Source: a virus. From it: a DNA stretch of 35,372 nt. The stretch is from positions 1-35,372 of IMG/VR virus record IMGVR_UViG_3300007538_005819; one strand, written 5' to 3'. Both the position numbers and the translations under genes were made by a program. A model generated the notes under the pieces. The model made no database searches and was not told where the DNA came from. It saw nothing but the letters and a program-made list of their open reading frames with translations. The number at the start of each line of letters is the position of its first letter. Positions within the stretch are counted from its first letter, which is position 1. Positions 2,838-31,245 of the stretch are shown here, piece by piece.

Positions 2838-4454
2838 TTAAAATGGTCTTTTTTGTAGTATCCAAGTGTCTTCTGGTACCATATGTAAACCTCTTCTTCT
2901 TCCACCGCCAACTATCATCTCTTGTGTCCTTTGTTCGTCAGTAATATCTAGTGGTTCTAATTTATATATGCGTGTGTCAGTTTCTGGTCCTTCCCAATTT
3001 TCTCTTTGTCTATATGTAATTCCAAAAATTCTATAAGGTGTAAAAGTTTTTGGTTTTACTCGTTCACCTCTACTAGTACTAAATCCCTCACGACTTTTGT
3101 CTAAGTCTACAATTATAATTTCATCACCTTTATTAAGTGGTTGATTGGTTTGTGTAGACTCATTTAATTTACCTAAATTATTTTTTTTACTTTTAATAAG
3201 ATTTTTTAATCTCCTACTTAAATTTATTTCTTTTAAGTTTTCTTTATGTAATTCATCAATTTTTGGTCTTATGAAATCATACAATTCGTTACCTAATTTT
3301 TTACCAAATTCAATATCACTAGGATAATGTACTTTCGCCATGTTTCTACTGAAAGCAATTTCATCCCCTAATTTGGTAAAATCTTTTTTATATTTTGGGT
3401 ATAAATCACTTAAATAGCGTGAAATAAATATACCTTGTGTCGCATGACCAGAAGGATAGGATGGTGTATTAGCCGATTTTAAATCTTCAGAACCTAATTC
3501 CATATTTTTAATCTTAGCTACTTGACTAGGTCTAGGTCTATTGTAATGATATTTTAATTTTAATATTATTGATTTAACATCATCCATTAATTTATTTATA
3601 CCCAAATGAGGAAAGTCTAAGTCTTTAGTTTTTAAAAATTTTTTAAAGTGTCCATCAATATCATCTGCACTTTTTACCATTTCTTTTTCTGTTGGAATGG
3701 TTTTTAAATATTCTATTTCTTTTTCTGTTTGTTGTGATTCGTTTTTTGGTGGTGGTGTATTTTTAAATTTATCCAAAGGAAATTCTTTAAATAAATCTAA
3801 ATTATTATTAATTTTTTTTTTGTGTTTTTTGGTTGGGGATTTTTTAAAAACCAAATCTTTTAGTTTTTTGTTTTTAGATTCATTTATTACTGAATTAAGG
3901 TAAACGCTTGTTGTCTGTCCATCTATGAACTCAGTATCACCGTAATCAATTACTTCTGTCGTGCCACCCCAATCATAAAATTCTTCATCACCCATATTTT
4001 CAGCACTATTTTTATCAAAAGCTACCACATCAACCTCACCACCTCTAAACACTATCCAACTCTCAGTCTCATCTCTAGTAATTCTATATGATTTAGGTGG
4101 TACTTTTATTGGGTTTCTTATAGAAGCATAATCACCGTCTTCTGTCCAATTATCCAAAGCCCACTTTATGTATTTTTTAGAAGCCATTGTAGATTCATAA
4201 GTGTCTAAATTTAACCCAAATAACTTCGCAAAATCATACCATTCACGCTCATAACTCGTACTTATACCACTAACTAATTCTTCCATTTGTTTTTTTGTAA
4301 ATCTTTTATGAATAGATGTTAATAACTTCAATTCAAAAGGTGTGAATGGTTTACGGTCAGCATTATCTAAAGATTCTTCATCAGACCAAGAATCTCGATT
4401 ACGGTCTTGTTCCTTAATACTTAAAATTTTTTTTATTTCTTTTAAAGTATACAT
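2838..4454 (-). CDS. PAP2-family phosphatase embedded in a larger protein with possible processing sites
   Basis: In 538 residues, about 255-400 form a PAP2 acid phosphatase core with all three motifs: K301-x6-R308-P309, P334-S-G-H337 and S369-R-x5-H376-x3-D380. The catalytic His and Asp are present. PAP2 enzymes remove phosphate from lipid phosphates, undecaprenyl-PP or small molecules; no membrane helices are seen, so this one is soluble. Residues 1-190 and 434-538 match no family I know. The core lies between two L/I-x-E sites, I190-N-E|S193 and L430-N-E|S433, and the N-terminus has I13-K-E|Q. This suggests cutting by a prohead-type protease to free the enzyme. The start overlaps the stop of the upstream transglycosylase gene (TAATG). 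Confidence 0.85.
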   Translation of the reverse strand: MYTLKEIKKILSIKEQDRNRDSWSDEESLDNADRKPFTPFELKLLTSIHKRFTKKQMEELVSGISTSYEREWYDFAKLFGLNLDTYESTMASKKYIKWALDNWTEDGDYASIRNPIKVPPKSYRITRDETESWIVFRGGEVDVVAFDKNSAENMGDEEFYDWGGTTEVIDYGDTEFIDGQTTSVYLNSVINESKNKKLKDLVFKKSPTKKHKKKINNNLDLFKEFPLDKFKNTPPPKNESQQTEKEIEYLKTIPTEKEMVKSADDIDGHFKKFLKTKDLDFPHLGINKLMDDVKSIILKLKYHYNRPRPSQVAKIKNMELGSEDLKSANTPSYPSGHATQGIFISRYLSDLYPKYKKDFTKLGDEIAFSRNMAKVHYPSDIEFGKKLGNELYDFIRPKIDELHKENLKEINLSRRLKNLIKSKKNNLGKLNESTQTNQPLNKGDEIIIVDLDKSREGFSTSRGERVKPKTFTPYRIFGITYRQRENWEGPETDTRIYKLEPLDITDEQRTQEMIVGGGRRRGLHMVPEDTWILQKRPF

Positions 4455-5782
4455 TAACTATAATTTATTTTTTTATTGTCATATTTTTCAGTCCACAACT
4501 CCATAAATTGGCATGGATGGGTTCCGTTATTTGCTTTCATATTTTTAAATATTCCTTTACCGTAATTTCTACCATACCCAAGTTTGTTTGAAGCCTGTTC
4601 TAATGATTCTTTACCACCTAAATTACCAAAATTTTGACACGCTGTATAAATAATTTCAAATCCTCTAGTTCCTTGATTATGTGCCATGTAAATTTCTGCA
4701 TTTGTAGGTCTTCTACCAGTTATATAACTTAAAGAACGAATTTTTTCTTTTAATTTTTTTCCAGCTGCTTTAGCATTCTCATATGGGTCCCACACTGTCA
4801 GATTTGTAACACCATAATCATCAAAATATTTAGGCATTATTTGATATAACCCAGAAGCTCCACTATTTTTATTTTTAGCTGATGGGTCACCACCAGATTC
4901 TATATTCGCTATAGTAAACATTAATTCCTTACTTAACCCATTTTCATCACTAGATACATTAATAGCGTCCACAACCACAGGACTAAAAGATTTTACATTA
5001 CCTTTTGTAAACTGTGTTTTAATTTGTTTAGGGTCATTAATTTTTGGATTTTTGTTTATGTTTTTGAGGTTTTTCATCGCTCTTAGTGTTTCCTTATCTA
5101 CCTTATCACTAACTTCAAATCCATGGTCAGCTTGAAAAGCATTCACAGCTTTTAAAGTTTCGGAACCAAACTTACCATCAACACCAAACCTTGGTAGTAC
5201 ATAATTAAGTGAAATTAAATCTTCTTGCATTTCCCTTACTTTGGACCTCATGTCTTTCCTACCTTTATCCATACCATCGTATAAAGATAATGTAGTTTCT
5301 CTATCAAATTTTTTACTTTCTAATATTCTGTGTAGTTGTTGTTCTGTAATTACAATATTCATTTTGGGAAGTTTAATTTTTTTATTTGTATTTTCGTAAA
5401 TGTTAATACCAGTGTACCCAAAACCTTTTACTAATTGTCCTGCAATTGCATTAGCTTCATCCTCAATTACTCCACCAATATCTTGTGGTGGATTATTGAT
5501 GTCTATCCTGCCATCTTCTAATTGTTTATGATGTACCAACTCATGAGCTATACTCCTTAAAATATCAGCTGTAGCTCTGTTTTTAGAATAAACATTTACA
5601 GTATTATCATTTAAATTATAAGAAGCTAAAGTCATTAATTTACTTCTATCAGTAACTAATTTTACAGTAACTGGTACTTTATAACCTAAGATATCTTGAC
5701 AAAATTGTAAAAACTTATCTACAATTTCTTTTTGAGATAAACTTCCACTTTGTTCTTTAATAACATTTTTACGTGTCTCCAT
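4454..5782 (-). CDS. Metallopeptidase-like / peptidoglycan-binding / lytic transglycosylase protein
   Basis: The 442-residue product has three modules. Residues 15-125 carry a zinc peptidase motif H80-E-L-V-H84, with E107 or E109 a possible third ligand. Residues 160-240 are a peptidoglycan-binding (PG_binding_1) fold with FGVDGKFGSETLKAVNAFQ. Residues 270-400 are an SLT lysozyme-like domain with catalytic E295 (ANIESGGDP), then SGASGLYQIMP and a late AHNQG motif. It should cut the glycan strands of host murein, either at DNA entry or at lysis. There is no signal peptide. The leader VIKE|Q (residues 7-10) and the internal ITEQQLHRILE|S (E155), which lies exactly between peptidase and wall-binding modules, look like prohead-protease sites. 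A TATTTAT box lies 5 nt before the ATG. Confidence 0.85.
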   Translation of the reverse strand: METRKNVIKEQSGSLSQKEIVDKFLQFCQDILGYKVPVTVKLVTDRSKLMTLASYNLNDNTVNVYSKNRATADILRSIAHELVHHKQLEDGRIDINNPPQDIGGVIEDEANAIAGQLVKGFGYTGINIYENTNKKIKLPKMNIVITEQQLHRILESKKFDRETTLSLYDGMDKGRKDMRSKVREMQEDLISLNYVLPRFGVDGKFGSETLKAVNAFQADHGFEVSDKVDKETLRAMKNLKNINKNPKINDPKQIKTQFTKGNVKSFSPVVVDAINVSSDENGLSKELMFTIANIESGGDPSAKNKNSGASGLYQIMPKYFDDYGVTNLTVWDPYENAKAAGKKLKEKIRSLSYITGRRPTNAEIYMAHNQGTRGFEIIYTACQNFGNLGGKESLEQASNKLGYGRNYGKGIFKNMKANNGTHPCQFMELWTEKYDNKKINYS

Positions 5783-6721: not shown

Positions 6722-9700
6722 CTATCTATTCGAAGAATTAATTTGCCAAAGTTTTACTACTCTTTCGGCTTCTGAAAGTAAATTTCTTTTTTTATCTAAA
6801 AAAGAATTATTATTTAGTTTTGTATTAGTCTCATTATATATAATATCTCTAACTTTATTAGAATTTTCATTTATACTATCTAAGTTAGATGATGTAACAA
6901 AACTAAATTTATCAACCCAATCTTTTCCACTTATCAAAAAGTGTGAAAAATTTTCTCGATTAATTTTTTTAATATTATTTAGTTTATCTAGGTACTCAAA
7001 AATAAATTTTCTATTTTCAACAACATCACCATTCACTTTTTCGATTTCATTTTCTTTTAATTTTTCTATGGATTCTATAAAATATTTTTTTAAAATAAAA
7101 TCTTTTTGTATATCAACAATTTCTTCTGAAACTGTATTCATGTTTATATCATTATCATACATAAAATCAGTACCAGATTCGTTAATAGTTTCTTTGTCTT
7201 TTTCATTAGTTAGCTTTTGGTAATACTCATCTTCCATCCTATCTTTAAACCATGGATTAATATCATAATCTGGGTAATAATAGGAATAGTCATTAAGTTC
7301 TAGACAATCCCCCTTTTTACCATAACAATCATCAAAGGAATATTCTTCCTCCATAAAAATATTAAATATATTATTTAAATTTTCTGTATCAAAATCATAA
7401 AGTATATCTTCTAGATGATGGTCAGCGTAATCTGGATGATATTCGAATCGATTTATATTATCCCAAGCATCACCATCTTGTACCCAATTTTTTAAATCAT
7501 CTTCTATTACATAATATAGTTTACCATTACGAGATTCTAGTTTACCATCATAATCAAAGTGTTCTTCTATATTATTTTTAATATCTTTTGTAATATCACT
7601 ATAAAACTTATCGTGTGCCGCATCTGAATTTGCCCACCTAATATAATGTTTTATGTTATCAATATCTTCTTCATATTTATAAATTAATTCTTCTTCTTCC
7701 TCATTTAATGGTTCATTATATAATAATCTTTCCGCTGTTTCTTTGTCGACATCTAAAACTTTGATTATTAAATCCCAACTAGCATCATCTAAGTCATCTA
7801 AAAAATTACTATGTAATTCATCGAATCCATATAAATCATCACCAAAAAAATCCTCGCTACATAAATATTTATCTACCAATTCCCTATCATCTTTTACGAA
7901 TAATTTTTGTAAATCGTCACAATCAAAAAACTTAGTTACTGGAAGTGGTTTTTTTGTATTTTGTAAATAACGTACCAATAATGGTATAAAATAACTTATG
8001 TGTTTTGGGGCACCAACTAACTTTAACATATTACGATTTATATTGTTTTTAGGGTCTTTATCCCAATATTCAAATATTTTTTTTACTAAACTTTCTGGAA
8101 ATGTAGTGGTTATTTCATCTTTTTCTTCATCAGAAGTCCCAGTTGGGAAATTCCATACTCCCCACGGATATAACGATAATTGTTCCTCATTAAGTTTTCT
8201 TCTAATTGTAGTAACCGCTTCTGGATATTTAGATTTCACAATTTCACTATTTTTATCGTCATAATCAACTTGGTCTAAAACATGTCTCATAGCATTTAAA
8301 GCTGACATTCTTTTATCATTTGAATCTAAAATTACCCATGGTGCACCACTGTGTGACGTATCTTTAAACACTCTTTCTTTATAGTCTGTATATTCATCCC
8401 ATTTTTCTCTAGAAGCTTCATCGTTGGGTGAGTATTTCCAGTATTTTAGTGGTGATTGTTGTCTAATAGTAAATCTTTGTTCTTGTTTTCCTTGTGTGAT
8501 TGATAACCAAAATTTAATCAATATTACCCCTTTACCTAATAAACTTTTTTCAAAGGGAACAACGTCTCTCATAAATTCTTCATATTCTTCTTTAGAAGAA
8601 TATCCCATAACTGGTTCTACAATACCTCTATTATACCAACTTCTATCAAAAAAAGTTATTTTACCAGGTTCTATATATTTTTCATATCTCTGAAACCAAT
8701 TTTTCTTTTCTTCTTCTGTAGGGATTCCTAATGCAATAACATTAAAATACTTTGGGTCTAAATATTCTGTCATATTTCCAATAGTGGAACCTTTTCCAGC
8801 TGTATCTCTTCCTTCAAAAATTATAACTAAAGGTATATTATTCTTTTTAACCCATTCTTGTAATTTTAATAACTCTATCTGTAATAACTCTTTTTCTGTT
8901 TTAAATATTTTCCTAGGTATTTTAGATTTTTCTTCTTCTACCTCATCATAATAATCAACACCCTGTGGTGTTTCCCCCTGTAATAATTTTTTTTCGTATT
9001 TAGCTCTTTTAGGTAATGAAGTGTTTAAACGACTAAGGTAATCTATAACTATTTCTGTTTTATCACCACTTTTTAAAAGTTTATTTTCCAAACCTCTCAA
9101 CATAGTGGGGAAATCAATTAAATCTATGTAATCAGAATCTTTTAGTTGGTCAACCAATTTAGATACTTCTTCATCATATATCTCATTTTCATCTAATGTA
9201 TCTTGTAATTGTTGTAAATATTGGTTTAGTTCATTTGGTGTATCACTTTTTTGTTCTGGTTTTTTAAATAAATTACTTAAAATATCAAAAAAACCTTCAT
9301 TAATTATTTTTTGATGTTCATTAAGTTTTTTATTTTTGTCTGGAAACATTTGATTTATATCAAATATAAGATGATTTGGGTGGTACTCGTCCACATAAAC
9401 ATCATTATAAGAATCAAACTCATATTTTTTATATACATATTCAAAATCTCTGTCTGATTCATCTACCTCTTCACTATCTATAATTTCAGCCAAACCGTAT
9501 TCAGGTCCTTCCAAACACATAATATAATCATGCAAATTGTATTCTTCAACACAACCAAGTTCAATTGGATTTGTTGTACTATATATTGTTTCTTCTATTA
9601 TAGGGTGGTAATATTGTTCTAATTCAAGTTCTTCCCATTCATTACATTCACAATCTCCCACACCTCCTCCAAAAACATCTTCAAGTTCATCTTCTGAACA

Positions 9701-10069
9701 AGCTCTATATTCATCACCGTGTTCATCCCAAATAATACCATCTACACACGCACAAGAATCACCAGATTCCTCACCCACACCATCCACACAATCATCATAA
9801 AACCATTCACTTTCTATGTCACCATAAACACGAACTCTACTAAGATATACTTTTGGTAAAACCCATTCTTCAACATTATCACGGTTACCAATTAAATAGT
9901 TGTATTCATATATGAAATTCATTTCACTACTTAAATAAGAAGGTAGTTTAAAATATTTCATTAATGTTTGTCCAAATTTATTAGTAGATGGTTGTTTAAT
10001 TAATGCAAGAGTAGTTTGCATAATTCTTTTAGCGTTAGTAGTTAAATTTAATTTTTGAGGTGACATCAT
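6722..10069 (-). CDS. Giant acidic protein with a central polyphosphate kinase 2 (PPK2) domain
   Basis: 1115 residues. The PPK2 core spans about 380-605: Walker A G420-R-D-T-A-G-K-G-S-T429, lid/Walker B motif FFDRSWYNRG (473-482) and a typical C-terminal WVILDSNDK (578-586). PPK2 enzymes use polyphosphate to phosphorylate nucleotides. Flanks are unusual: residues 60-250 are very acidic with a Cys-rich stretch (94-142), and 650-950 is another acidic region resembling part of the 915-residue protein at 28498. Possible prohead-protease sites surround the enzyme: I256-N-E|G259, L626-N-E|E, I962-N-E|S965 and L1098-S-E|A1101. A free PPK2 of about 370 residues would result. Two ATGs (10069, 10066) are possible starts. 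A TATTTAT box lies 2 nt upstream. Confidence 0.85.
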   Translation of the reverse strand: MMSPQKLNLTTNAKRIMQTTLALIKQPSTNKFGQTLMKYFKLPSYLSSEMNFIYEYNYLIGNRDNVEEWVLPKVYLSRVRVYGDIESEWFYDDCVDGVGEESGDSCACVDGIIWDEHGDEYRACSEDELEDVFGGGVGDCECNEWEELELEQYYHPIIEETIYSTTNPIELGCVEEYNLHDYIMCLEGPEYGLAEIIDSEEVDESDRDFEYVYKKYEFDSYNDVYVDEYHPNHLIFDINQMFPDKNKKLNEHQKIINEGFFDILSNLFKKPEQKSDTPNELNQYLQQLQDTLDENEIYDEEVSKLVDQLKDSDYIDLIDFPTMLRGLENKLLKSGDKTEIVIDYLSRLNTSLPKRAKYEKKLLQGETPQGVDYYDEVEEEKSKIPRKIFKTEKELLQIELLKLQEWVKKNNIPLVIIFEGRDTAGKGSTIGNMTEYLDPKYFNVIALGIPTEEEKKNWFQRYEKYIEPGKITFFDRSWYNRGIVEPVMGYSSKEEYEEFMRDVVPFEKSLLGKGVILIKFWLSITQGKQEQRFTIRQQSPLKYWKYSPNDEASREKWDEYTDYKERVFKDTSHSGAPWVILDSNDKRMSALNAMRHVLDQVDYDDKNSEIVKSKYPEAVTTIRRKLNEEQLSLYPWGVWNFPTGTSDEEKDEITTTFPESLVKKIFEYWDKDPKNNINRNMLKLVGAPKHISYFIPLLVRYLQNTKKPLPVTKFFDCDDLQKLFVKDDRELVDKYLCSEDFFGDDLYGFDELHSNFLDDLDDASWDLIIKVLDVDKETAERLLYNEPLNEEEEELIYKYEEDIDNIKHYIRWANSDAAHDKFYSDITKDIKNNIEEHFDYDGKLESRNGKLYYVIEDDLKNWVQDGDAWDNINRFEYHPDYADHHLEDILYDFDTENLNNIFNIFMEEEYSFDDCYGKKGDCLELNDYSYYYPDYDINPWFKDRMEDEYYQKLTNEKDKETINESGTDFMYDNDINMNTVSEEIVDIQKDFILKKYFIESIEKLKENEIEKVNGDVVENRKFIFEYLDKLNNIKKINRENFSHFLISGKDWVDKFSFVTSSNLDSINENSNKVRDIIYNETNTKLNNNSFLDKKRNLLSEAERVVKLWQINSSNR

Positions 10070-10318: not shown

Positions 10319-10840
10319 CTAAACATTTGTGGGTTTTTCGGTGGAATTATATAAATCTTTGGTTTGATTTCTTTTATTCTGTATTTCTTCGGCTAGTTTT
10401 TTATTTCTATTCACCACTTCTTTTCTTCTTCTTTCTAATTCTTCTAAGTGATTTTTTTTATCTTCTTCTTCTTGTAACTTTTTACTTATAACATCTATTC
10501 TATCTAAAGCCATTTTAGTCATATACATATTGTTTTTAAGTAATTCTACAATGTCTTCCATAGTTGGTTCCCTATGTGTAACTGTTTGATAATATAGTAA
10601 AGACTGAATAGCTTCTTGTGGGTTACTAAAATCTCTATTAGGTATTAAATATTCTTTACCTATTACAAAGGTAGGGAACACAGCACTCCTAGTTAGAGAT
10701 TTAACATATTCCCATTCTTTTTTAAACTCTTTAAAATTTCTTTCAGTATACTCAACATTAGCTGCTTCTAATTCTTGTTTCATTTTTGCACAATACCCAC
10801 AAGTAGGCATTGTATACATTATAATTTCTAATTTTTCCAT
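10319..10840 (-). CDS. Glutaredoxin-like protein with C-terminal coiled coil
   Basis: Residues 1-85 form a glutaredoxin/thioredoxin fold: strand EIIMYTMPTC, redox pair C14-G-Y-C17, and a cis-Pro region SAVFPTFVIGKEYLI, with a following DFSNPQEAIQSLLYY helix. Residues 90-165 are a long charged helix, likely a coiled coil (KLQEEEDKKNHLEELERRRK), not found in ordinary glutaredoxins of about 85 residues. It would reduce disulfides or supply electrons to a ribonucleotide reductase elsewhere in the genome, with the tail giving oligomerisation or targeting. It is one of four thioredoxin-fold proteins in the window. The fold assignment is strong. Confidence 0.8.
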   Translation of the reverse strand: MEKLEIIMYTMPTCGYCAKMKQELEAANVEYTERNFKEFKKEWEYVKSLTRSAVFPTFVIGKEYLIPNRDFSNPQEAIQSLLYYQTVTHREPTMEDIVELLKNNMYMTKMALDRIDVISKKLQEEEDKKNHLEELERRRKEVVNRNKKLAEEIQNKRNQTKDLYNSTEKPTNV

Positions 10841-11734: not shown

Positions 11735-12337
11735 TTATTCTAATATTTTATCTACCAATCCGTATTCTAAACATTTTTTAGCGTCCCACCATAAATCATG
11801 CTTTAATATTTCATCCAATTCTTTTTGTGGTACTTTAGTATACTCTTGATATAAATTTTTTATCATATCCATCAATTTAGTATTATTTTCCATATCGTCA
11901 AGTAAATCGGAATATTTTCCCCAACTAGTAGCACTTAATTGATGGATTAACATATAAGCGTGTTTGTGAATATATCTTTCTTTACCAACTACACTAATCA
12001 TTGTACCAGCACTAGCAGCACACCCTTCTATAATTGTAATTACATCACATTTAGTATTTCTAATTGTATCTAAAGTTGATAAACCAGCAAAAATACTACC
12101 TCCGTAAGAATTGATGTGTAAATAAATTTTTGGTAACTCTACTCCTAATTTTAAACTACTAATTTGTAATTCTTTATCTAATTCATTTATTTGTTTATTC
12201 AACTCTAACATCTTACTCCTTTCTACCTCAGAATAAAAATAAATGTGATTGTTTACCGTTGTAATTTCGTTATTACTATCACTAGATGAATTTGATTTAT
12301 CATCTTGTTTTACACCCCAAATTGGTTCTTTATTCAT
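11735..12337 (-). CDS. ClpP-like serine protease, copy A
   Basis: The 200-residue protein shows the ClpP fold with catalytic triad Ser109 (GCAASAG), His132 (LIHQ) and Asp181 (KHDLWWDA), followed by the typical LEYGLVDKI. An oxyanion-type NSYGGSIFAG segment is at 76-85. The first 30 residues are polar and may be a disordered or processed propeptide. It is separated by one nucleotide from a second ClpP gene. ClpP forms tetradecamers and needs an AAA+ unfoldase (ClpX/ClpA), which is not in this window; it could borrow the host's. In phages ClpP-like enzymes can also act as prohead proteases, so a role in capsid maturation should be considered. Confidence 0.85.
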   Translation of the reverse strand: MNKEPIWGVKQDDKSNSSSDSNNEITTVNNHIYFYSEVERSKMLELNKQINELDKELQISSLKLGVELPKIYLHINSYGGSIFAGLSTLDTIRNTKCDVITIIEGCAASAGTMISVVGKERYIHKHAYMLIHQLSATSWGKYSDLLDDMENNTKLMDMIKNLYQEYTKVPQKELDEILKHDLWWDAKKCLEYGLVDKILE

Positions 12338-12338
12338 T

Positions 12339-13007
12339 TTAATTTCTTTTTTGTATTATCTCATCAATTATTCCATATTCTAAAGCTTGGTCTGCATCTA
12401 ACCATAAATCTCTTTGTGCATCCTTTTCAACTCTTTTGGTTGTTTTACCACAAGCTTTCGCCAATATATCAAATAAAATTTTATTGGTTTTTTCCCATTC
12501 ATCCATAGTAATTCGAGCGTCTTGGATGTTACCAACAGCACCACCACTAGATTGATGCAACATTGTTTTACTATATCTCAAAGAATTTCTTTTACCTTTT
12601 GTCCCTACTGCTAATAATACTGAACCCATAGAAGCTGCCATACCAGTATTTAATGTCCTAATATCACATTTAACATATTCCATAACATCAACAATCCCCA
12701 AACCAGCTTTTACCGAACCACCAGGTGAATCTATATGTAATGTAATATCATCGTCATTAATCGTATCTAAATACATTATTTGTGCTTGAAGAATTTGTGC
12801 AGTTATATCCATTATTGGTCCAGATAACCATATTATTCTTTCCATCATAAGTCTAGAAAATATATCAATTTGTGTGGCTCTCATTTCTCTTTCCTCTAAA
12901 ATATAGGGTGTAAGTGAATTTTGATAGTCCCATAAAGTGGTAGACGAAATTGGGTTCTTCATACTTCTACTATATAAACTAAAATCTTTGATTAGGTCAT
13001 TTTTCAT
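12339..13007 (-). CDS. ClpP-like serine protease, copy B
   Basis: I start this gene at the ATG at 13007 (222 residues), which has an A-rich leader; an upstream extension would need TTG at 13040. The triad is Ser126 (GMAASMGS), His151 (MLHQSSGG) and Asp200 (QRDLWLDA), with the substrate-cleft strand HIDSPGGSVKAG at 91-102. It is closer to standard ClpP than copy A and both appear active, so the two may form a mixed ring as ClpP1/ClpP2 pairs do in some bacteria. Residues 1-35 are an N-terminal extension. Alternatively one copy matures the capsid. Both lie in one operon with cyclophilin. Confidence 0.85.
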   Translation of the reverse strand: MKNDLIKDFSLYSRSMKNPISSTTLWDYQNSLTPYILEEREMRATQIDIFSRLMMERIIWLSGPIMDITAQILQAQIMYLDTINDDDITLHIDSPGGSVKAGLGIVDVMEYVKCDIRTLNTGMAASMGSVLLAVGTKGKRNSLRYSKTMLHQSSGGAVGNIQDARITMDEWEKTNKILFDILAKACGKTTKRVEKDAQRDLWLDADQALEYGIIDEIIQKRN

Positions 13008-13051
13008 ATTTAAATTATTATTTTTTTGTTTTACTGTCAATTTTATAATCT

Positions 13052-16606: not shown

Positions 16607-16642
16607 ATCGAAATAGTTAAATTTTAAGTTTTGAACTACCCA

Positions 16643-16680: not shown

Positions 16681-16706
16681 TAAAGAATATTTATTTAAAA
16701 AACAAA
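16675..16706 (-). promoter_or_regulatory. Canonical Bacteroidota promoter for UVDE
   Basis: The minus strand reads TTTG (16703-16706), 20 nt, TATATTTG (16675-16682). The -33 box overlaps the ATG of the divergent gene at 16706. Confidence 0.75.
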
Positions 16707-16960
16707 TGAAAGATAGAATAAAAAAATTATTAAGAGAATTTAGTATTGACGAACTAGATAGAAAAACATATAAAGATGGTCAATTATCTTTAGAATATAT
16801 AGATGCTTACGATTACCCAAAATATGTTATTTATTATGATACAGAAGAACCAGTAGATGGTTATGGTGATGAAACAAATATAGTAGTCGCTGAATTAGAT
16901 TCTAGATTTTTTGATGAAAGAATGGCTAGAATAATATTACAATACCTAATAACTAGGTAA
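16706..16960 (+). CDS. Small acidic protein with capsid-targeting-like leader
   Basis: The 84-residue protein begins MKDRIKKLLREFSIDELDRK: a basic amphipathic helix ending L-R-E, as in the leaders of the larger neighbours. The rest is acidic and beta-rich (YVIYYDTEEPVDGYGDETN, VVAELDSRFFDERMARIILQ). No family is recognised. It is the only plus-strand gene between two minus-strand runs, diverging from UVDE and ending at a bidirectional terminator at 16989-17018. A TATTTAT box lies 11 nt upstream of its ATG. It may be a small virion-internal protein. Confidence 0.6.
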   Translation: MKDRIKKLLREFSIDELDRKTYKDGQLSLEYIDAYDYPKYVIYYDTEEPVDGYGDETNIVVAELDSRFFDERMARIILQYLITR

Positions 16961-19097: not shown

Positions 19098-19700
19098 TTA
19101 GTGAAATGAAACAAAACCATTTTCTGATGCAACTTTAAAAGCTTCTTTCCAATCATCATATTTTGCAAAAAACCATTCCATATCTCTAATATCATATTCT
19201 TTGTATGGGTGTACTTTTAAAAACCACATATCTATGTTTTCTTTGATTTTACCTTCATTATTTATAAAATCATTATATAGTTTTTTACTTAACTTAGGTC
19301 CTATTATACCATCTGAATCTGAAAAATTAATTAATTCTGAAAATGGTGGACTTTCTGGTTTACCAATTATTGATTCATCTTCTAATGACCAAACTTCTTG
19401 AGCTCCACCTGAGAAACCAGCAGCTAAAGCTAAATCATCTCTCCATTCATTATACCCACTATAACTACCAGCCCTAAATGAATTTTCACCCAAATTACGT
19501 GGTACCAAATACCAACCATTTTCTAAACCTTCTAAATGTTTTGGCCAATTACTATTTTTTTTGTCTATGTAATAAAGATAGTTATTTGGATATTGTTTAT
19601 CCCATTCATCAAATTCCTTATTAAAAGGTTTAACACCTTTTGGTACTTTATTGGGTGGTATATGTTCTACGTTTGAATAATATGATATATCTAATCCCAT
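19098..19700 (-). CDS. Conserved-looking phage protein of unknown function
   Basis: The 200-residue soluble protein begins MGLDISYYSNVEHIPPNKVP and has a central motif FRAGSYSGYNEWRDDLALAA. It is rich in Trp and Tyr and contains FSELINFSDSDGIIGPKLSK. This MGLDI...FRAGSYSGYN-W layout is one I associate with conserved phage and bacterial proteins of unknown role that may bind a ligand; I cannot name a function. Its start overlaps the stop of the glutaredoxin gene (TAATG), so it is the last gene of the redox/glutamine synthetase operon. Confidence 0.6.
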   Translation of the reverse strand: MGLDISYYSNVEHIPPNKVPKGVKPFNKEFDEWDKQYPNNYLYYIDKKNSNWPKHLEGLENGWYLVPRNLGENSFRAGSYSGYNEWRDDLALAAGFSGGAQEVWSLEDESIIGKPESPPFSELINFSDSDGIIGPKLSKKLYNDFINNEGKIKENIDMWFLKVHPYKEYDIRDMEWFFAKYDDWKEAFKVASENGFVSFH

Positions 19701-19972
19701 TATAACATTAATTTTTTAATCTTTTCTACACCCTCTTCAATTTCATCAAAATCATTATCTGGTGCCAAATAAATTTTACTTTTTTCGTCATGATTCACGA
19801 TACAAGCTGTTGGTATATATTGTGTGTTAGCTTCTTTACTAACTTTATCCCACTCTTTATCAAATCTTTCAATATCTCTGACTAAAAATTTAATCCCTTC
19901 TTTTTCTAATAAATTTTTCATTTTAGTACACCAAGGACACCCTTCTTCTGAATATATTAATAATGTTTTCAT
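19700..19972 (-). CDS. Glutaredoxin
   Basis: A 90-residue protein of standard glutaredoxin length. It has the dithiol active site C12-P-W-C15 in IYSEEGCPWCTKM, an IPTACIV cis-Pro segment at about 55-61, and a C-terminal helix FDEIEEGVEKIKKL. It probably reduces ribonucleotide reductase or other phage proteins using glutathione or an alternative thiol. It is the first of three adjacent thioredoxin-fold genes and is linked by overlap to the 200-residue unknown protein. Confidence 0.85.
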   Translation of the reverse strand: MKTLLIYSEEGCPWCTKMKNLLEKEGIKFLVRDIERFDKEWDKVSKEANTQYIPTACIVNHDEKSKIYLAPDNDFDEIEEGVEKIKKLML

Positions 19973-19978
19973 ATAATA

Positions 19979-20290
19979 TTAATTTAAATAGTAGTTAATT
20001 TTATCTTTGTAAAAACTTTTTTCTCGCAAACCAACAATTCTTTCTACTTCAACACCTTCTTTGTATATTATAATAGTTGGTATACTCCTTACTTGATGTT
20101 GAGACGAAGCTTCTGCATTATCAGTAACATTAACTTTACCTATTACTGCTTTATCAGCGAAATCATTTTCCAATTCTTCTATAGTTGGTGTTAACATCCT
20201 ACATGGTCCACACCATTCAGCCCAAAAATCAACTAGAACAACACGATTTTCTTTAATTGTGCTTTCTAATGTGTTATCGTTTAATTCCAT
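19979..20290 (-). CDS. trxA: Thioredoxin
   Basis: The 103-residue protein is a full thioredoxin: VLVDFWAEW26-C27-G-P-C30-RMLTPTIEEL, the buried Asp D21, cis-Pro in RSIPTIIIYKEG, and the final GLREKSFYKDKINYYL helix. It reduces disulfides in cytoplasmic proteins and can serve as processivity factor of some phage polymerases, although nothing here shows that. It sits between two glutaredoxin-like genes and upstream of the glutamine synthetase stop-to-start run. A TATTTAT box is 4 nt before its ATG, inside the end of the preceding gene's spacer. Confidence 0.92.
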   Translation of the reverse strand: MELNDNTLESTIKENRVVLVDFWAEWCGPCRMLTPTIEELENDFADKAVIGKVNVTDNAEASSQHQVRSIPTIIIYKEGVEVERIVGLREKSFYKDKINYYLN

Positions 20291-20292
20291 AA

Positions 20293-20568
20293 TTATAAAT
20301 ATTGTTTTAATTCTAACAAAGCCTCATCTGGTGTATTAAAATCTCTACCAGCAGCTATATAAATTCTATTTTTTTTATCTTCTACCAAAATAGTAGGTGT
20401 ATACATAATGTTAGAATTAGTTTTTAATTCTTCTTTTCTTATTTCTTCCCAAAGTTCTTTGTTTTTTAATACTTCAATAACTTTGTATTTTATATTTTCT
20501 TGTGTCAGTAGGTCTTTTAAAGCGACACAAGTTTTACATTCCCATTGACTAAATAATGTTATTCTCAT
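20293..20568 (-). CDS. Thioredoxin-fold protein with CKTC active site
   Basis: The 91-residue product reads MRITLFSQWECKTCVALKDL, with a redox pair C11-K-T-C14 and a later IMYTPTILVEDKKN (cis-Pro) and ARDFNTPDEALLELKQ-like helix. The CKTC pair is unusual between thioredoxin (CGPC) and glutaredoxin (CPYC). Function is probably disulfide exchange, perhaps specialised for a phage partner. It ends 2 nt before the thioredoxin start and begins 3 nt after the glutamine synthetase stop. Confidence 0.75.
   Translation of the reverse strand: MRITLFSQWECKTCVALKDLLTQENIKYKVIEVLKNKELWEEIRKEELKTNSNIMYTPTILVEDKKNRIYIAAGRDFNTPDEALLELKQYL
20295..20301 (-). promoter_or_regulatory. TATTTAT box before thioredoxin
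   Basis: AATATTTATAATT directly precedes the ATG at 20290, gap 4 nt. It overlaps the end of the gene at 20293. Confidence 0.35.
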
Positions 20569-20571
20569 ATT

Positions 20572-21651
20572 TTAAACTTCAATTGTTCTAAATTTATTTT
20601 CTGCTTTTAATAAAGTATCATAAATAATACCACATAATAAGTATGGATTAGCATTACTAGCTGGTCTTCTATCTTCCAAATAACCCTTCCAACCATTTTC
20701 TATTGTACTTATAGGTATTCTTATACTAGCACCTCTATCACTTACACCATAACTAAATTTATCAATGTGTTGGGTTTCATGTAATCCAGTTAATCTTTTT
20801 TCATTCCCATCACCATATAATTTAATATGGTTTTTATGGTTTTTACCAAACTCTTCACAAATAGATTCAATCATTTCTTTTCCACCAACTTCTCTAGTTA
20901 AATCACTAGAAAAATTAACATGCAACCCAGAACCATTCCAGTCTCCTTTAATTGGTTTTGGATTAAAATTAACTTTTAAATCATATTTTTCTGTTAATCT
21001 TATTAACAAAAATCTAGATAACCATAATTCATCACTAGCTTTTTTAGCTCCTTCTGAAAATACTTGGTACTCCCACTGTCCTACCATCACTTCAGCATTA
21101 ACACCAGTAATATTAAGATTAGCTTCCAAACAAACTTGTAAATGTTCTTCTATAATATCACGACCTACAACATTTTCAGAACCCACACCACAATAATATT
21201 GTCCTTGTGGTTTAGGATAACCTTCACTTGGGAAACCCAAAGGTTTGTTATTTTTTATTGTTAAAGTATATTCTTGTTCAAAACCAAACCAATATTGTTC
21301 ATCATCAATTAAATTATGTCTATAATTTGTTTCATGTGGTGAACCATCAGCATTTAAAACTTCACACATAACTAAATAACCATCTAATCGTTGTGGGTCC
21401 ATTATAACATGAACTGGTTTTAATAAACAATCTGAATTATTACCATCAGCTTGTTTAGTTGATGAACCGTCAAATGACCATTGAGGTAATTCTTCGGGAC
21501 AAGGAATTACTCTTCCATTATAAGCCAATGTTCTCTTAGTTTGCATTTTGGGGTCACTCATTGGGTCATAATCCCATATTTTGGTTTTACTCCTTAATTT
21601 TTGTGTTGGTTGGTAACCATCTAACCAAATATACTCTAGTTTTACTTTCAT
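20572..21651 (-). CDS. Glutamine synthetase, type II (eukaryote-like)
   Basis: 359 residues with the GSII landmarks: N-terminal beta-grasp LEYIWLDGYQPTQKLRSKT, WSFDGSSTKQADGNNSDCLL, FGFEQEYTL (metal-binding Glu pair), GVNAEVMVGQWEYQVF, NGSGLHVNFS, and RGASIRIPISTIENGWKGYL followed by EDRRPASNANPY. Length equals that of flavobacterial GSII, so it is intact. It joins ammonia to glutamate with ATP. In infected cells it could keep glutamine available for nucleotide and amino-acid synthesis. Its position with thioredoxin and glutaredoxins suggests one metabolic takeover operon. Origin from a Bacteroidota host is likely. Confidence 0.93.
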   Translation of the reverse strand: MKVKLEYIWLDGYQPTQKLRSKTKIWDYDPMSDPKMQTKRTLAYNGRVIPCPEELPQWSFDGSSTKQADGNNSDCLLKPVHVIMDPQRLDGYLVMCEVLNADGSPHETNYRHNLIDDEQYWFGFEQEYTLTIKNNKPLGFPSEGYPKPQGQYYCGVGSENVVGRDIIEEHLQVCLEANLNITGVNAEVMVGQWEYQVFSEGAKKASDELWLSRFLLIRLTEKYDLKVNFNPKPIKGDWNGSGLHVNFSSDLTREVGGKEMIESICEEFGKNHKNHIKLYGDGNEKRLTGLHETQHIDKFSYGVSDRGASIRIPISTIENGWKGYLEDRRPASNANPYLLCGIIYDTLLKAENKFRTIEV

Positions 21652-25363: not shown

Positions 25364-26176
25364 ATGAAACTTATAAATGAACTTACATCATTAATTGAAA
25401 TTTATTCTAAAGAATCTACTGAAGAGGAATGTTTACCTAAACCAGTTGAAAAGTGGAATGAAGTAAATTATTCAGTTAAAGATATAAAAGAAGGTAAAAT
25501 ACTTAATTACGGTGATAGGGATACTAAAAATACTAATGCCCTTAAAAAAATCCAAGATAAATTAGGTGTTGTTATTGATGGTGAATATGGTGTCGGCACT
25601 TTAAAAGCTTTAGCTAAAGAATTAGATATAGATTTATGTGAACAAACTAATTACAATATACCAATAGGTCCAAACGCTATTAAAAATTTAGGTATTAAAG
25701 AAAGTTTAATAATAACTAAAGAAAATAGAGAAGACTACATATTAGCTTCTACCTTAGCAATTGAAAATCAAAATGCTGGTAAAAAAGAATTATACGCAAT
25801 ACTATCCACTATAAAAAATAGAGCTAATAAATGTAATAAAAGTATGGAATACATGGTTTTATTACCCCAACAATATAGTACTTGGAATTATTACAACGGA
25901 TTAAGTGCTGAAGAAAAAAAGAAAGAGTTAAAAAATAGATTAGAAAACCACATAGAAAATAAAAATCTAAATAATTTTTTAAAGGTAGTTAAAGACTTTA
26001 AAAAAGGTGGTGTTATTTCCAATTACAACCATTATTTTACTAATGAATTAGCTGATGAAGCCGATAACGGTGAATTAACAAACTCAATTGCTCAATCATA
26101 CTTAGATAATAAAGATAACTCTAAAGTAATTGGTGACCACACATTTTGGTGGGATAAAAATCACAAATGTTCCTAA
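25364..26176 (+). CDS. Cell-wall hydrolase (SleB/Hydrolase_2-like) with peptidoglycan-binding domain
   Basis: In 270 residues, the leader MKLINELTSLIEIYSKES resembles the capsid-targeting-like starts of neighbours. Residues 45-85 are a peptidoglycan-binding repeat (NALKKIQDKLGVVIDGEYGVGTLKALA). Residues 120-268 match cell-wall hydrolase Hydrolase_2: LAIENQNAGKKELYAILSTI, KNRANK, LLPQQYSTWN, a later NHYFTNELADEA and GDHTFWW. The first Glu would be catalytic. It should cut host murein; lacking a signal peptide, it needs a holin or virion delivery. A TATTTAT box is 4 nt upstream. It is the second wall-cutting enzyme in the window after that at 4454. Confidence 0.75.
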   Translation: MKLINELTSLIEIYSKESTEEECLPKPVEKWNEVNYSVKDIKEGKILNYGDRDTKNTNALKKIQDKLGVVIDGEYGVGTLKALAKELDIDLCEQTNYNIPIGPNAIKNLGIKESLIITKENREDYILASTLAIENQNAGKKELYAILSTIKNRANKCNKSMEYMVLLPQQYSTWNYYNGLSAEEKKKELKNRLENHIENKNLNNFLKVVKDFKKGGVISNYNHYFTNELADEADNGELTNSIAQSYLDNKDNSKVIGDHTFWWDKNHKCS

Positions 26177-26202: not shown

Positions 26203-28116
26203 ATGAAAAGGTTAATCAAAGAAAGTGGTATTCAAGACATTAATAAAATAGCTAAAAGATATCCCAAAGCTGAAATTTATTTTCATCAAGATTTAGACGG
26301 TGTTGTATCTGCAATCGCAATGAAAGAATACTTAGAGAAGTACGGAATAGATGTTGTTGACACTCACGTTATTCAATACGGTGATAGAGAATTTTCTGTA
26401 TCTAAACCTAAAGCTGAAGGAGACACAATGCAGGTATTGGTAGATTTTGCCCATGGTAAACCTATGTTCACTATTCACACTGACCACCACGATAGTCAAT
26501 CGGGTGTAGAAGGTGATACTTCCACTCAATTTAGAGGAGCTCGGTCAAATGTTGAGACCATTTCTCAAATTGTTAGTCCTCAAGATATTTTTACTAGTGA
26601 TGATATATTAAGAATATCAACAATTGATAGTGCTGATTACGCAAAACATGGTTTGACACCAGATGATGTAATGAACTACATTAAAAAATTTGACTTTAAT
26701 GGTACAGTTCCCGAAAATAAATGGATGTTAGCTTTATTAACCAATAAATTACTTTTAGCATATAAAAACAAACCAGGATTCTTAGAAAAATTGGTAGCTA
26801 GGTCTTCACCTTCATTAATGAATATTTTTCACAATATTAACTCAATAGCTGGAGACGAGAATTTTGCTTCACCAGAACAAATGGCAATAAATCAAGAAAA
26901 ATATGTTAAATCACAAGAAGAAAGTGAAAATCTAAAATTAGAGGACAATATTATTATACAATACGGTGGTGGTAGTCTTTATAAACCAGGTTCTTATGAT
27001 AGATACACACCATTTAAAATATACCCAAATGCTGATTTTCTAGTAATAGCTTGGCCAATGGGATTGGTTCAAGCCTCATGTAATCCATTTAAAAAAGAAA
27101 GAGCATTAAAAGGAATTAATTTAGCTGACATAGCTCAAGAAGTGTTAAGTAAAATTGAACCTCAACTTAGAAATCATCAAGTTCCTGTTTCTGTTATAAA
27201 AAGAATTGGTGAAACAAAAGCTGATGAAAGTAGTATTGGTTTTAAAACTTCTGATTTGTTTGCACTCTATAAAGATTATTTAGTTAATTTACCTCCAGTT
27301 AACTCACCTTATTATAATGAAATTGTTAGGATAATAGACACTCCTTGGAACAATTTAAGTGAAGAAGAAAAACAAGTTCTAGACAATATTACTGTACCAG
27401 CTTGGGATGTGATACAAGCAAATAGTGGTGGCCACAAATGTATAACTAATGTAAGTGGACTTAACTTTTTTGCTAGAGCAACACGTAATCCAGAAGGTAA
27501 TTATCGTAAAAAGGACACTAAACCAACAAGGTATGTAGAATTTGTTAAATGGGTCCAAAATGAAATGGTTAAAACACTTAAAGAAAAAATAAGTCAAGAA
27601 TCTATTAATGAAATAAAAAGAAATATTAAAAAAACATTAATAGAATCTTCTTTTATTTCTGATGCCTTAGGTGATTTAGCTTCAGCAGCTATAGGTGCAA
27701 CTGGTTTTGTTGGAATGCCAGTAATGGTAGCTTTAATAGGTAAAAACATATACGAGATTAAAAAAAATAATACTGATTTAGAAATAGCTTTGGACAAATT
27801 TAAGAATAACCCAACAGCTGAAGATTTAAAAGTTATTGAAGAAGAAATGTATAATGTAAGTCAAGATTTGGTAGATTTAACATCTAGGGTAATTCAACTG
27901 ATTCCAGACCCAACAGCGGCAAGTGACATAGCAGCTTTTGTGGGAGAACAAACTTTAGGTGCTTTAGCTTTACATAAAATACCAGCAATTCTTGATAATT
28001 TAAAACCTTTAATTGATAAAATTCCAATTATCGGTAAGACTGAAGTAACTGACGCAATGAATAATGTTGGACTAGCACATAAATTATTGGATGAAATAGG
28101 TGAGAAACTTAATTAA
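26203..28116 (+). CDS. DHH-family phosphoesterase with C-terminal hydrophobic domain
   Basis: In 637 residues, about 20-430 form a DHH/DHHA1 phosphoesterase: F27-HQDLDGVVSA (motif I), VDFAHG (80-85), TDHHDS (93-98) and a late SGGHKC (DHHA1 GGH motif, 408-413). Such enzymes (NrnA, RecJ relatives) hydrolyse short RNA, pAp or cyclic dinucleotides. Residues 484-637 are separate: a Gly/Ala-rich hydrophobic stretch (SAAIGATGFVGMPVMVALIG) with helices, perhaps membrane-seeking. The leader MKRLIKE|S and the internal TLIE|S (E481), exactly between the two parts, look like prohead-protease sites. Substrate is unknown; degrading cyclic-nucleotide defence signals is one idea. Confidence 0.8.
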   Translation: MKRLIKESGIQDINKIAKRYPKAEIYFHQDLDGVVSAIAMKEYLEKYGIDVVDTHVIQYGDREFSVSKPKAEGDTMQVLVDFAHGKPMFTIHTDHHDSQSGVEGDTSTQFRGARSNVETISQIVSPQDIFTSDDILRISTIDSADYAKHGLTPDDVMNYIKKFDFNGTVPENKWMLALLTNKLLLAYKNKPGFLEKLVARSSPSLMNIFHNINSIAGDENFASPEQMAINQEKYVKSQEESENLKLEDNIIIQYGGGSLYKPGSYDRYTPFKIYPNADFLVIAWPMGLVQASCNPFKKERALKGINLADIAQEVLSKIEPQLRNHQVPVSVIKRIGETKADESSIGFKTSDLFALYKDYLVNLPPVNSPYYNEIVRIIDTPWNNLSEEEKQVLDNITVPAWDVIQANSGGHKCITNVSGLNFFARATRNPEGNYRKKDTKPTRYVEFVKWVQNEMVKTLKEKISQESINEIKRNIKKTLIESSFISDALGDLASAAIGATGFVGMPVMVALIGKNIYEIKKNNTDLEIALDKFKNNPTAEDLKVIEEEMYNVSQDLVDLTSRVIQLIPDPTAASDIAAFVGEQTLGALALHKIPAILDNLKPLIDKIPIIGKTEVTDAMNNVGLAHKLLDEIGEKLN

Positions 28117-28497: not shown

Positions 28498-31245
28498 ATG
28501 AATGTTAACCTAATTAACTATAACACACAAAAAGGTCTAATATTAGAAAAAATAGAAGAAAAAGATTCTATCGTAAAAAAAACATTACTTGATTTAGGTG
28601 GTATAATAGATGGGACTTTTACTTTCGGTACTGGTATCACAGCTATGTTACCCGCAGTTAAACAACTAATGACTGGTTCAACACCTCAACTAACAGAACA
28701 AGATATAATTATTTTATATATTACCGCTATGTGGATATTAGTTGGTAAACATAAAGAAAAAGTAACTAAATTACTTGAAATTATAAAAGAAAAAGGATTA
28801 ACCGAATCATTAAATACAGTTTTTAATTTTTTAGAATCTTTAGAAGATGTAGTTTTAAAAATTGGTAAATCATTAGGTTATACAGCAAATTCATTAACTG
28901 ACATAGTCGCATTTACTTTTCTTGCATTTCCAATATTAGACGGCATTTTATTTTTAATGAATCAAGGTTTTATAGATTATGGTTCACCAACTGGTTACTT
29001 AAAGAGTATTTTATTTGGTGTGGGTATATTAGGATTTAAAAACATTTTTAATCATATTATAAAAAAATTAGGTGGTAAATTAGAAAAGCTGGATGAAACT
29101 AATTATCTGAATGAAGGTGTTGAATTTTATGATGAAACATTATTAATGGTCAATGATGTGATGTCTATAGTTAAAAGTACTATCACGGACAAAAATGAAA
29201 AAACATATTATTTACCAGAAGATTTAAGAAATGAAGAATTAATATATGATATAGAAAATTATATTTTTACAATAGAATTAACTATATCTAGAGATGAAAC
29301 TATTGAGGATGAATTTAATATCGAAGCTTACTATGTTGATGGTGAGGATACAATAGAAATATATCTAACAATAAACCCTTTATTCGAACCTGAAAGTTAC
29401 GAACATATAGAAAATTATTTAGCTGAATATATAAGACATGAAATTAGACATGCTGAACAAGAAGTTATGGGTGTTAAACCAAAAAAAAGAGACAATAAGT
29501 TAAGTGGTTTAGAATATTATACTCAACCACATGAGATAGACGCTCAAACCTCTGGTTTAAATATTAGAAGAATAAAACAAAATCGTTCTTTTGAAGAGGT
29601 TGTTCGTAATTCTATAGAGAATAGTAAAAAAAGATATGGATTAAGTGATGAAGAAGGTGAAGAACTTTACGACATACTATTAAACGATATTATTGAAAGA
29701 TATGGTAAAGAGTCTCTACAAGAAGTAAATTTATATGAGCAAACAGAGCCTTTAAAAGAAATACCCAAAAAAATAGTTTTGGATAATGAAAAATATAAAA
29801 TATATGTACCACTTAAAACATCAGACATATGTAATATACCAAACACCAAGTATTGTTATACAAACACAACCATAAAAAATCAAGCATCTAATGGAACACC
29901 TTATATAATTGAATTCAAAAAATCTGAAGCTAAAGATAATGACAATTTATTAGTTATAGATAGTGGGAAAATACCTTTTTTAAGAGAACCAAAATCAACT
30001 AAACTAGCTTACGATGTTAATGGTTATCCAGTTAACATTTTAAAATCATTAAGTCAAGAAAAAGAACTTCAAGATTTTTTTCATTTAAATTATTCATTAA
30101 AAGATAGAATAAAATACAATGTTGATTTTGATGAATCCGATATGTTAAAAGGAAAAAACCATAGTAAATTAGGTGAACTTTTATATTATATTAATAATAA
30201 TAAAAAAGATTATACGGAACTAATTGATTTTTTTGGTTCTTTTGATGAATTTAATTCGCGTTATCATAGTTGGGCTGATGAAAATGAAATAGAATTAGTA
30301 CCTAGTGGTATTAATGTTTTTCTAAGTGAAGATGATTTTAAATACAATGTCTTAGGTTTAAGTAATGACGATAACTATTATTATAATTTAATTATGGGTA
30401 ATTACCATGATTCACCTTATGACGAATTACCTGATGATGAATTGAATTATGCATCTTGTTGGTTTAATAATGAACAACGAGTTAAATTAATTGAAATTAT
30501 GAATGTGATGCAAGGTACTGATATTCCTTTGGACAGACCATGTCATCAGTTTAATGATGGTGAAATAAATGACTTTTTCAATTTATATTTTCCGAATGAA
30601 TGGGATAGATATGGTTCTGATATGTTATATACTTTAGGTTACGGTATAGCTAAAAATAGAGTTGATAAATTAAAAAAAGAGTTTGATGATGAAGTAATTT
30701 TTGATTATGAAGAAGTTTCAAATGATGTGGTAATGATTCATATTGGGTGGCAATCTTTACTTTACTTAGTCACAAATTATTTAGATGAAAATAGTACTTT
30801 AGATGATTTATTTAATCAACCGATTAGTGAAATTGGTTTTGATTTAAGTGAAGCTTATTATGATGAATATGGTTGGGGTGAGGAAACTGAAAATGATATA
30901 CGTCAAACTATAGATAAGTTACTAGAAACTATCGATGAAAATGAAAATATATCTGATAGAAGAGAATTTGTAGATAAATTTACTAAATTTATCAAAGATG
31001 AAGGTTTTACCAAACCATCATACGGTAATTATATTTTTAGTAAAGAAACACCAATAGAAGGTAATGATGGTAAAAATTATAAAAGAACTATAGTAGTAGA
31101 TAAATTAATCCCTTCTGAAGAAAAAATTGATTTTACAATAACTATTAGTGGACCTCTTAAATATGATAGAGAAAGTTATGTATTACCTTTCGAAGATTTT
31201 GTTACGAAAGTTAAAAGTCTTTCTTTATTTGAAATTCCTCAGTAG
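28498..31245 (+). CDS. 915-residue protein: membrane segments, HEXXH peptidase-like domain, acidic repeats
   Basis: Residues 30-185 contain about four hydrophobic segments (31-55, 68-83, 133-155, 167-181). After YLNE|G (E206) comes a possible zinc metallopeptidase domain with HEIRH (314-318), and a third ligand may be H345 or E346 in QPHEIDAQ. The remaining 500 residues are unrecognised; 620-815 is very acidic and similar in composition and layout to residues 740-950 of the PPK2 protein. SLQE|V and LYE|Q (409, 414) may be further cut sites. Cutting after E206 would separate a membrane part from the enzyme. A role in virion entry or host takeover is possible. The gene ends 7 nt into the bS21 gene, tail to tail. 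Confidence 0.75.
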   Translation: MNVNLINYNTQKGLILEKIEEKDSIVKKTLLDLGGIIDGTFTFGTGITAMLPAVKQLMTGSTPQLTEQDIIILYITAMWILVGKHKEKVTKLLEIIKEKGLTESLNTVFNFLESLEDVVLKIGKSLGYTANSLTDIVAFTFLAFPILDGILFLMNQGFIDYGSPTGYLKSILFGVGILGFKNIFNHIIKKLGGKLEKLDETNYLNEGVEFYDETLLMVNDVMSIVKSTITDKNEKTYYLPEDLRNEELIYDIENYIFTIELTISRDETIEDEFNIEAYYVDGEDTIEIYLTINPLFEPESYEHIENYLAEYIRHEIRHAEQEVMGVKPKKRDNKLSGLEYYTQPHEIDAQTSGLNIRRIKQNRSFEEVVRNSIENSKKRYGLSDEEGEELYDILLNDIIERYGKESLQEVNLYEQTEPLKEIPKKIVLDNEKYKIYVPLKTSDICNIPNTKYCYTNTTIKNQASNGTPYIIEFKKSEAKDNDNLLVIDSGKIPFLREPKSTKLAYDVNGYPVNILKSLSQEKELQDFFHLNYSLKDRIKYNVDFDESDMLKGKNHSKLGELLYYINNNKKDYTELIDFFGSFDEFNSRYHSWADENEIELVPSGINVFLSEDDFKYNVLGLSNDDNYYYNLIMGNYHDSPYDELPDDELNYASCWFNNEQRVKLIEIMNVMQGTDIPLDRPCHQFNDGEINDFFNLYFPNEWDRYGSDMLYTLGYGIAKNRVDKLKKEFDDEVIFDYEEVSNDVVMIHIGWQSLLYLVTNYLDENSTLDDLFNQPISEIGFDLSEAYYDEYGWGEETENDIRQTIDKLLETIDENENISDRREFVDKFTKFIKDEGFTKPSYGNYIFSKETPIEGNDGKNYKRTIVVDKLIPSEEKIDFTITISGPLKYDRESYVLPFEDFVTKVKSLSLFEIPQ

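Follow-up and report, generated by a model that had tools for sequence, protein, structure and literature searches.

Enzyme Polyproteins with L/I-x-E Sites at Their Module Joints: Candidate Head-Packaged, Protease-Cut Cargo in a Virus Record and Its Phage Relatives

Introduction

In RNA viruses, the polyprotein is a single chain that is diced by a viral protease. In phage T4, according to passages of a review, the protease gp21 cuts after L/I-X-E, the first ten residues of the internal protein IPIII are enough for targeting, and leaders of this kind may allow T4-like phages to acquire varied cargo (PMC9026906). Here we describe the 35,372-base virus record IMGVR_UViG_3300007538_005819, which is the whole stretch of DNA analysed (the window) and probably a fragment of a larger genome, and which contains five polyprotein open reading frames (ORFs) with recognisable enzymes or an HEXXH motif. 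Judging from sequence comparison, we consider it likely that these five ORFs are precursors of head-packaged cargo, that is, polyproteins cut in trans by a prohead protease at (L/I)-x-E sites.

Results

A preliminary description of this DNA had proposed that short L/I-x-E sites separate the enzymes from neighbouring segments, and all of the sites that it named were located (before S193, S433, G259, E629, S156 (preceded by ILE), S482, and G207, besides the leaders SIKE↓Q16, VIKE↓Q11, LIKE↓S8, and LLRE↓F12, where the arrow marks the proposed cut). Its list was incomplete: the PPK2 chain also has INE↓S965, for example, and the DHH chain has INE470↓I ahead of LIE481↓S. Its set of following residues, G, S, A, or E, overlooked the frequent Q (LNE↓Q, IKE↓Q). 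It had also warned that the motif is loose and prone to chance, as the counts bear out: [LI]xE[GSAE] occurs 35 times in 34 ORFs vs. 30.5 times in shuffled proteins, and 17 vs. 13.1 times in the five proteins, while the form [LI][NKR]E[GSAQE] (10 vs. 3.0) is a narrower one picked after seeing the sites. Bare motif counting was therefore dropped as evidence, and the case rests on placement, because the motif number is ordinary and the count alone is uninformative.

Borders were defined as the ends of local BLAST homology among the full protein sets of the window and of eight contigs of relatives, the motif not being used and G001 (close to the window) and G003 being left out; the start codon was the first ATG in the open frame, or the first ATG, GTG, or TTG for the gene sets of the border analysis. 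The 391 border clusters were reduced to 253 non-redundant ones, with 91 of them within a component of 54 proteins connected by homology to the five ORFs of the window and 162 outside, and motifs were scored within 12 residues of a border against 2000 permutations. Over all 253 borders the signal is modest ([LI]xE 94 vs. 76.6 expected; [LI]NE 27 vs. 9.9). At the 91 component borders, [LI]xE is found at 67 (39.9 expected), [LI]xE[QSGAT] at 42 (15.9 expected), and [LI]NE at 22 (6.0 expected), and none of the 2000 permutations reaches any of these values; outside the component, [LI]xE[QSGAT] stands at 11 of 162 borders vs. 10.8 expected. Nine of 11 control motifs lie at 0.83–1.16 of expectation, and among two-letter words at component borders, the strongest enrichment at its spacing is that of L.E (p 5e-9, uncorrected), with NE and EQ as the top adjacent pairs. 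The earlier argument from domain-border placement thus holds with borders set by homology alone.

Comparison with the relatives finds the same modules shuffled between different chains, with many of the joints at L/I-x-E. The PPK2 of the window is flanked by LNE↓HQKIINE↓GFF and LNE↓E, while that of L004 begins at LLVE↓GFF, and after it come STIKE↓S and the HEXXH module, which in the window sits in the 915-residue ORF; this HEXXH module starts after STIKE in L004 and after LINE in G012_50224, and PPK2 stands alone in L006, L007, and L009. The DHH enzyme continues into the hydrophobic module (after LIE, LLE, or LVE), into a SET domain (L026), into about 500 other residues (L027), or into a stop soon after the domain (L024, L025, and L028). 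G012 encodes the hydrophobic module as a separate gene, and G004 does so for PAP2. In G012_5366 (3039 residues), G012_19995 (2457), G008_177123 (2007), and G008_167832 (1668), giant chains carry the repeats A and B of the PAP2 ORF, many of them parted by LNE↓Q, LQE↓Q, IKE↓Q, or similar sites, with [LI]xEQ occurring 10 times vs. 1.4 in shuffled sequence in G012_5366 and 7 vs. 1.1 in G008_177123. As a separate observation, the PPK2 chains L151, L159, L163, and L166 of other phages open with a GD-type module that resembles module B by eye. Near contig ends, G009:182311-185327 and G008:190124-193598 hold more genes with leaders ending in INE↓Q, LSE↓Q, ISE↓Q, or LSE↓E, which are possibly further cargo.

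The 442-residue ORF also bears on a quite unlikely alternative, according to which the sites are leftovers of gene fusion, with downstream genes having kept their start leaders and no present cutting inside the chain. The joint of this ORF, MNIVITEQQLHRILE↓S, is indeed a leader copy including its Met, and the two halves are two separate genes in G008, G009, and G012, the second of which opens with a like leader (MKI.ITE.QL). Nevertheless, the repeats of G012_5366 and G008_177123 are parted by sites such as LNE↓Q with no obvious leader (by eye), and in variable surroundings the E of the border sites outlasts other E residues: of 36 site pairs, 81% retain it (and 78% both positions), compared with 36% of 47 for other border E followed by the same residues and, where the motif lies within a domain, 52% of 61 (this comparison excluded G010 pairs and those more than 85% identical).

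Conservation was followed further in the listed relatives, which are 80 of at least 197, 80 of at least 503, and 80 of at least 578 confirmed. The earlier expectation that L/I-x-E would be conserved in homologues is borne out for the DHH enzyme, which is preceded by [LI]xE in 82 of the 82 loci listed (not independent, several being from the same or near-identical contigs) and in all 59 distinct contexts, the leaders being of at least four dissimilar sorts, among them MKKLIKE↓SG, MKIEITEKQLEFINESLLNE↓GG, MELVNTLSQILLKE↓SG, and MLRKYGQFINE↓EVG. For the PPK2 N-termini it is borne out in part, with [LI]xE in 42 of 54 in phages vs. 20.8 shuffled (85 loci before removal of 5'-open and duplicate ones), compared with 19 of 75 in bacteria vs. 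24.3 shuffled (5 of 80 loci being unusable). Where PPK2 has a C-terminal fusion, [LI]xE lies within 30 residues past the domain in 17 of 19 contexts vs. 5.7 (6 of 86 loci lacked an end anchor), about half of the 19 belonging to one (I/V)NE↓Q(S/T) family and both misses being VNE; 14 of the 16 fusions new to the analysis have it (L001, L126, and L127 came from the first data set). An N-terminal leader ending in L/I-x-E was found in 15.9 of 27 cargo families vs. 3.5 shuffled, and in 86.7 of 670 other families. A regular-expression survey gave only 2 and 11 non-redundant families for leader classes I and II, and because they are so few, we claim a number of leader classes only for the DHH and PPK2 lists.

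Cargo homologues and a T4 gp21-type protease (PF03420, S77) share a contig in 4 of 12 records, and a pair of these four are near-copies in the PPK2 chain; by the gene order of G012, the G008 and G009 contigs stop before the head cluster. In this cluster (L278-L280, L283, and others), the protease, a core protein, and a capsid protein with the motif occur together in 20 of 21 loci (in L283 the protease lies at 15709-16425, -), the capsid protein having, at the T4-like position, [LI][NT]E with A, S, or T as the next residue and the core protein having 7–12 [LI]xE[QSGAT] sites, with a motif density per 1000 of 17.9 vs. 4.4 shuffled in G012. A metagenome number is common to L279 and G008 and another to L283 and G011, and our guess is that each pair is the same phage. 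When eight records were searched for Gp23, the two matches obtained were rejected, as both scored under the cut-off and contained stops. In T4, IPII and IPIII start with MKTYQEFIAE↓A and gp22 has 16 [LI]xE, and in huge phages of about 640 kb, the DHH and PPK2 proteins L110-L113 (LR756502, LR745206) carry (Y/F)..FINE↓E leaders, much like those of T4 IPII and IPIII, so that 4 of 5 such leaders end in FINE↓E after Y or F. The cultured relative, Flavobacterium phage immuto (L115), has a gp21-type protease (LLTE↓S) and a core-like protein with six [LI]xE[QSGAT] sites, and might serve as an experimental system. The preliminary description had proposed to search the rest of the genome for a prohead protease and for capsid proteins with the motif; relatives encode both, and in the window no capsid gene was seen.

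The protease-bearing relatives also bear on an unlikely alternative, in which the chains are proteins of the polyvalent type that either are cut by zinc metallopeptidase domains of their own (HELVH, HEIRH) or work uncut once injected. HEXXH does occur in two of the five ORFs, and processing by embedded zincins or assemblin-like peptidases was proposed by Iyer et al. in 2017, in the part of that paper that we used (PMC5512222). Against this, relatives that encode the gp21-type protease have L/I-x-E also where their capsid protein would be matured, and the four giant chains, when scanned, gave no Pfam peptidase match.

Several observations weigh against cutting by a prohead protease. Neither the 35-kb window nor G001, the closest longer relative, has an S77 protease match, and the motif number in the window is ordinary. 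Of the component borders, 24 of 91 have no [LI]xE within 12 residues, where chance alone would give 39.9 with one; the control [LI]xxE reaches 1.23 of expectation (p 0.047); and E[QSGAT] after a residue other than L or I reaches 1.31 (p 0.0015), a pattern under which many L/I-x-E sites fall, with [^LI]xE[QSGAT] at 0.98. Twelve of the 54 phage PPK2 N-termini lack [LI]xE, and Ex[LI] is raised in them (29 of 54 vs. 20.5), so that part of the N-terminal signal is accounted for by helical leaders. The core-protein density in G004 is 10.4 vs. 5.9 shuffled (p 0.16), the huge-phage protein L114 (LR756501) has FMNE↓S, and immuto has VSE↓A at its likely capsid site (by eye), neither of which is [LI]xE. 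The ordinary motif number, the somewhat raised Ex[LI] in PPK2 leaders, and the raised [LI]xxE at borders would also suit L/I-x-E being a by-product of helical, acidic linker composition with no role; we regard this as very improbable, given that borders are not enriched in [LI]xD, [VFMY]xE, [KR]xE, [DE]xE, Ex[LI], or [LI]xQ, and that those outside the component have no L/I-x-E excess. Cutting of packaged precursors by the prohead protease remains our preferred reading: the sites as cut sites are backed by border placement, conservation, and the capsid site in relatives, with packaging and cleavage predicted from there.

Features of the Window

Table 1. Polyprotein ORFs of the window, their modules and leaders, and weaker candidates.
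Feature	Position	Strand	Remarks
PAP2 polyprotein ORF	2838..4454	-	538 residues; PAP2 PF01569 at residues 299-384, Pfam E 5e-9
N-terminal leader MYTLKEIKKILSIKE, site IKE↓Q	4410..4454	-	Putative capsid-targeting peptide; IQE↓Q in the equivalent place of the homologues in G008 and G009
Module A, unnamed repeat, residues 16-192, ends INE↓S193	3879..4409	-	9 full-length matches
PAP2 phosphatase module, residues 193-432, ends LNE↓S433	3159..3878	-	Separate gene G004_8875, 177 residues
Module B, GDEI repeat, residues 433-538	2841..3158	-	22 matches, some of them weak, across window and relatives
Metallopeptidase-like, PG_binding_1 and SLT ORF	4454..5782	-	442 residues; HELVH
Its leader METRKNVIKE↓Q	5753..5782	-	Homologues TIKE↓Q (G008, G009), IIQE↓Q (G012)
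Internal start-leader copy MNIVITEQQLHRILE↓S156, residues 141-155	5318..5362	-	Leader of this type opens separate downstream genes in relatives
Peptidoglycan-binding and transglycosylase part, residues 156-442	4457..5317	-	PF01471, PF01464
PPK2 polyprotein ORF	6722..10069	-	1115 residues
N-terminal segment, residues 1-258, ends LNE↓HQKIINE↓G259	9296..10069	-	Homology borders 231-253
PPK2 module, residues 259-628, ends LNE↓E629	8186..9295	-	PF03976 at residues 389-607, E 1e-71
Unnamed module, residues 629-964, ends INE↓S965	7178..8185	-	Borders 614-629, 965-966
C-terminal module, residues 965-1115	6725..7177	-	Borders 965-984
DHH polyprotein ORF	26203..28116	+	637 residues; DHH-type phosphoesterase, PF01368 E 7e-4, under curated cut-off; DLDG and DHHD found
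Its leader MKRLIKE↓S8	26203..26223	+	[LI]xE kept in 82/82 loci
DHH enzyme, residues 8-470, ends INE↓I471	26224..27612	+	Module ends or fusions in relatives
11-residue peptide between INE470 and LIE481	27613..27645	+	Homologues have LIE, LLE or LVE
Hydrophobic module, residues 482-637	27646..28113	+	Separate gene G012_49333, 175 residues
Membrane-part and HEXXH ORF, LNE↓G207	28498..31245	+	915 residues; HEIRH at residue 314; border 203-217
Endolysin-like ORF, leader MKLINELTSLIE (by eye)	25364..26176	+	Weaker candidate member; PHROG 938 E 1e-5
84-residue ORF, leader ending LLRE↓F12	16706..16960	+	Weak candidate; leader only

The enzymes bear their signature motifs: Kx6RP, PSGH, and SRx5Hx3D are intact in the PAP2 ORF, EGRDTAGKG and DRSWYNR were found in the PPK2 module, and the DHH ORF has DLDG and DHHD. 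A Pfam search of the 915-residue HEIRH ORF gave no match, a PHROGs search of ten ORFs gave matches only for the SLT ORF, the ORF at 25364, and the window-end ORF at 34916, and in tblastn vs. phage records the PAP2 and 915-residue ORFs gave no match, while the DHH ORF matched 4 records and the PPK2 ORF 15, none covering more than 80% of the query. The full-length matches of module A come from the window and relatives, and most of them are seeds of its model. The AlphaFold2 (AF2) models of modules A and B have a predicted local distance difference test (pLDDT) of 76 and 74, and Foldseek against the PDB gave nothing significant for either (best E 0.48 and 0.32); by its model, module B may be SH3-like.

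Elsewhere in the window, a ClpP-like protease pair adjoins at 11735-13040 (-) (Pfam E 1e-30 and 2e-57), a Mom-family DNA-modification protein adjoins a UvdE UV endonuclease (14747-15652 and 15692-16648, both -), and a DUF2828/DUF7788 protein lies at 17285-18700 (-), which we take to resemble the Ro60/TROVE type. A glutamine synthetase (20572-21651, -) adjoins three small thioredoxin/glutaredoxin-like ORFs (by eye; 19700-20568, -), and a further glutaredoxin is at 10319-10840.

Discussion

From these comparisons we infer a pathway in which a short N-terminal leader would steer each chain into the forming head core, where the T4 gp21-type (S77) prohead protease would cut after (L/I)-x-E, taking the leader off and parting the modules. 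The freed modules would stay with the DNA and enter the host at infection, and their enzymes might serve nucleotide and phosphate chemistry, wall cutting, and possibly counter-defence. A broader claim, to which we give an even chance, is that large T4-related phages, mostly metagenomic, make true polyproteins of up to about 3000 residues that are loaded into the prohead and diced at (L/I)-x-E, with interchangeable leader/cut-site units letting lineages swap injected enzymes. If true, the cut sites would be a sequence signature for phage proteins carried into cells, phage genes of no assigned function would become testable injected effectors, a capsid-protease-cut polyprotein strategy would be added to tailed phages, and a source of natural capsid-targeting leaders would be at hand.

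In the titles and abstract openings of the open-licence PMC papers that searches on this question brought up, no enzyme polyproteins cut by a prohead protease are described. T4 internal proteins and polyvalent proteins are already known, and the novel part would be enzyme chains with head-protease sites at their joints. Polyvalent proteins, in the portion of their description used here, likewise have many unlike domains per chain, shuffled between elements, and are thought to be injected, but they were proposed to have embedded peptidases (PMC5512222), whereas here the sites fit an outside head protease. Several unlike domains shuffled between chains are found here too; judged by Pfam names, no polyvalent-named family is among the matches of the scanned chains, in which HEXXH and cell-wall enzymes recur. 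In phiKZ and SPN3US, from the sections of two papers that we drew on, many head proteins, the ejection proteins among them, similarly undergo cleavage after x-x-E by a gp21-like protease, with redundant propeptide sites, but the motif is S/A/G-x-E or A-x-E, and processing strips propeptides rather than separating enzymes (PMC5694885, PMC9026906).

The T4 internal proteins IPI-III and Alt, which bear capsid-targeting sequences and are cut by gp21, share with the chains described here a short leader, L/I-x-E, an S77 protease (in the relatives), and a cargo thought to enter the host. Unlike these chains, T4 cargo consists of single proteins, whereas here there are multi-enzyme chains with internal sites and several leader types, reaching up to 3039 residues in relatives. 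RNA-virus polyproteins resemble this proposed scheme in being one chain cut up by a viral protease, and differ in that the cutter proposed here would be the head-maturation protease of a double-stranded DNA phage.

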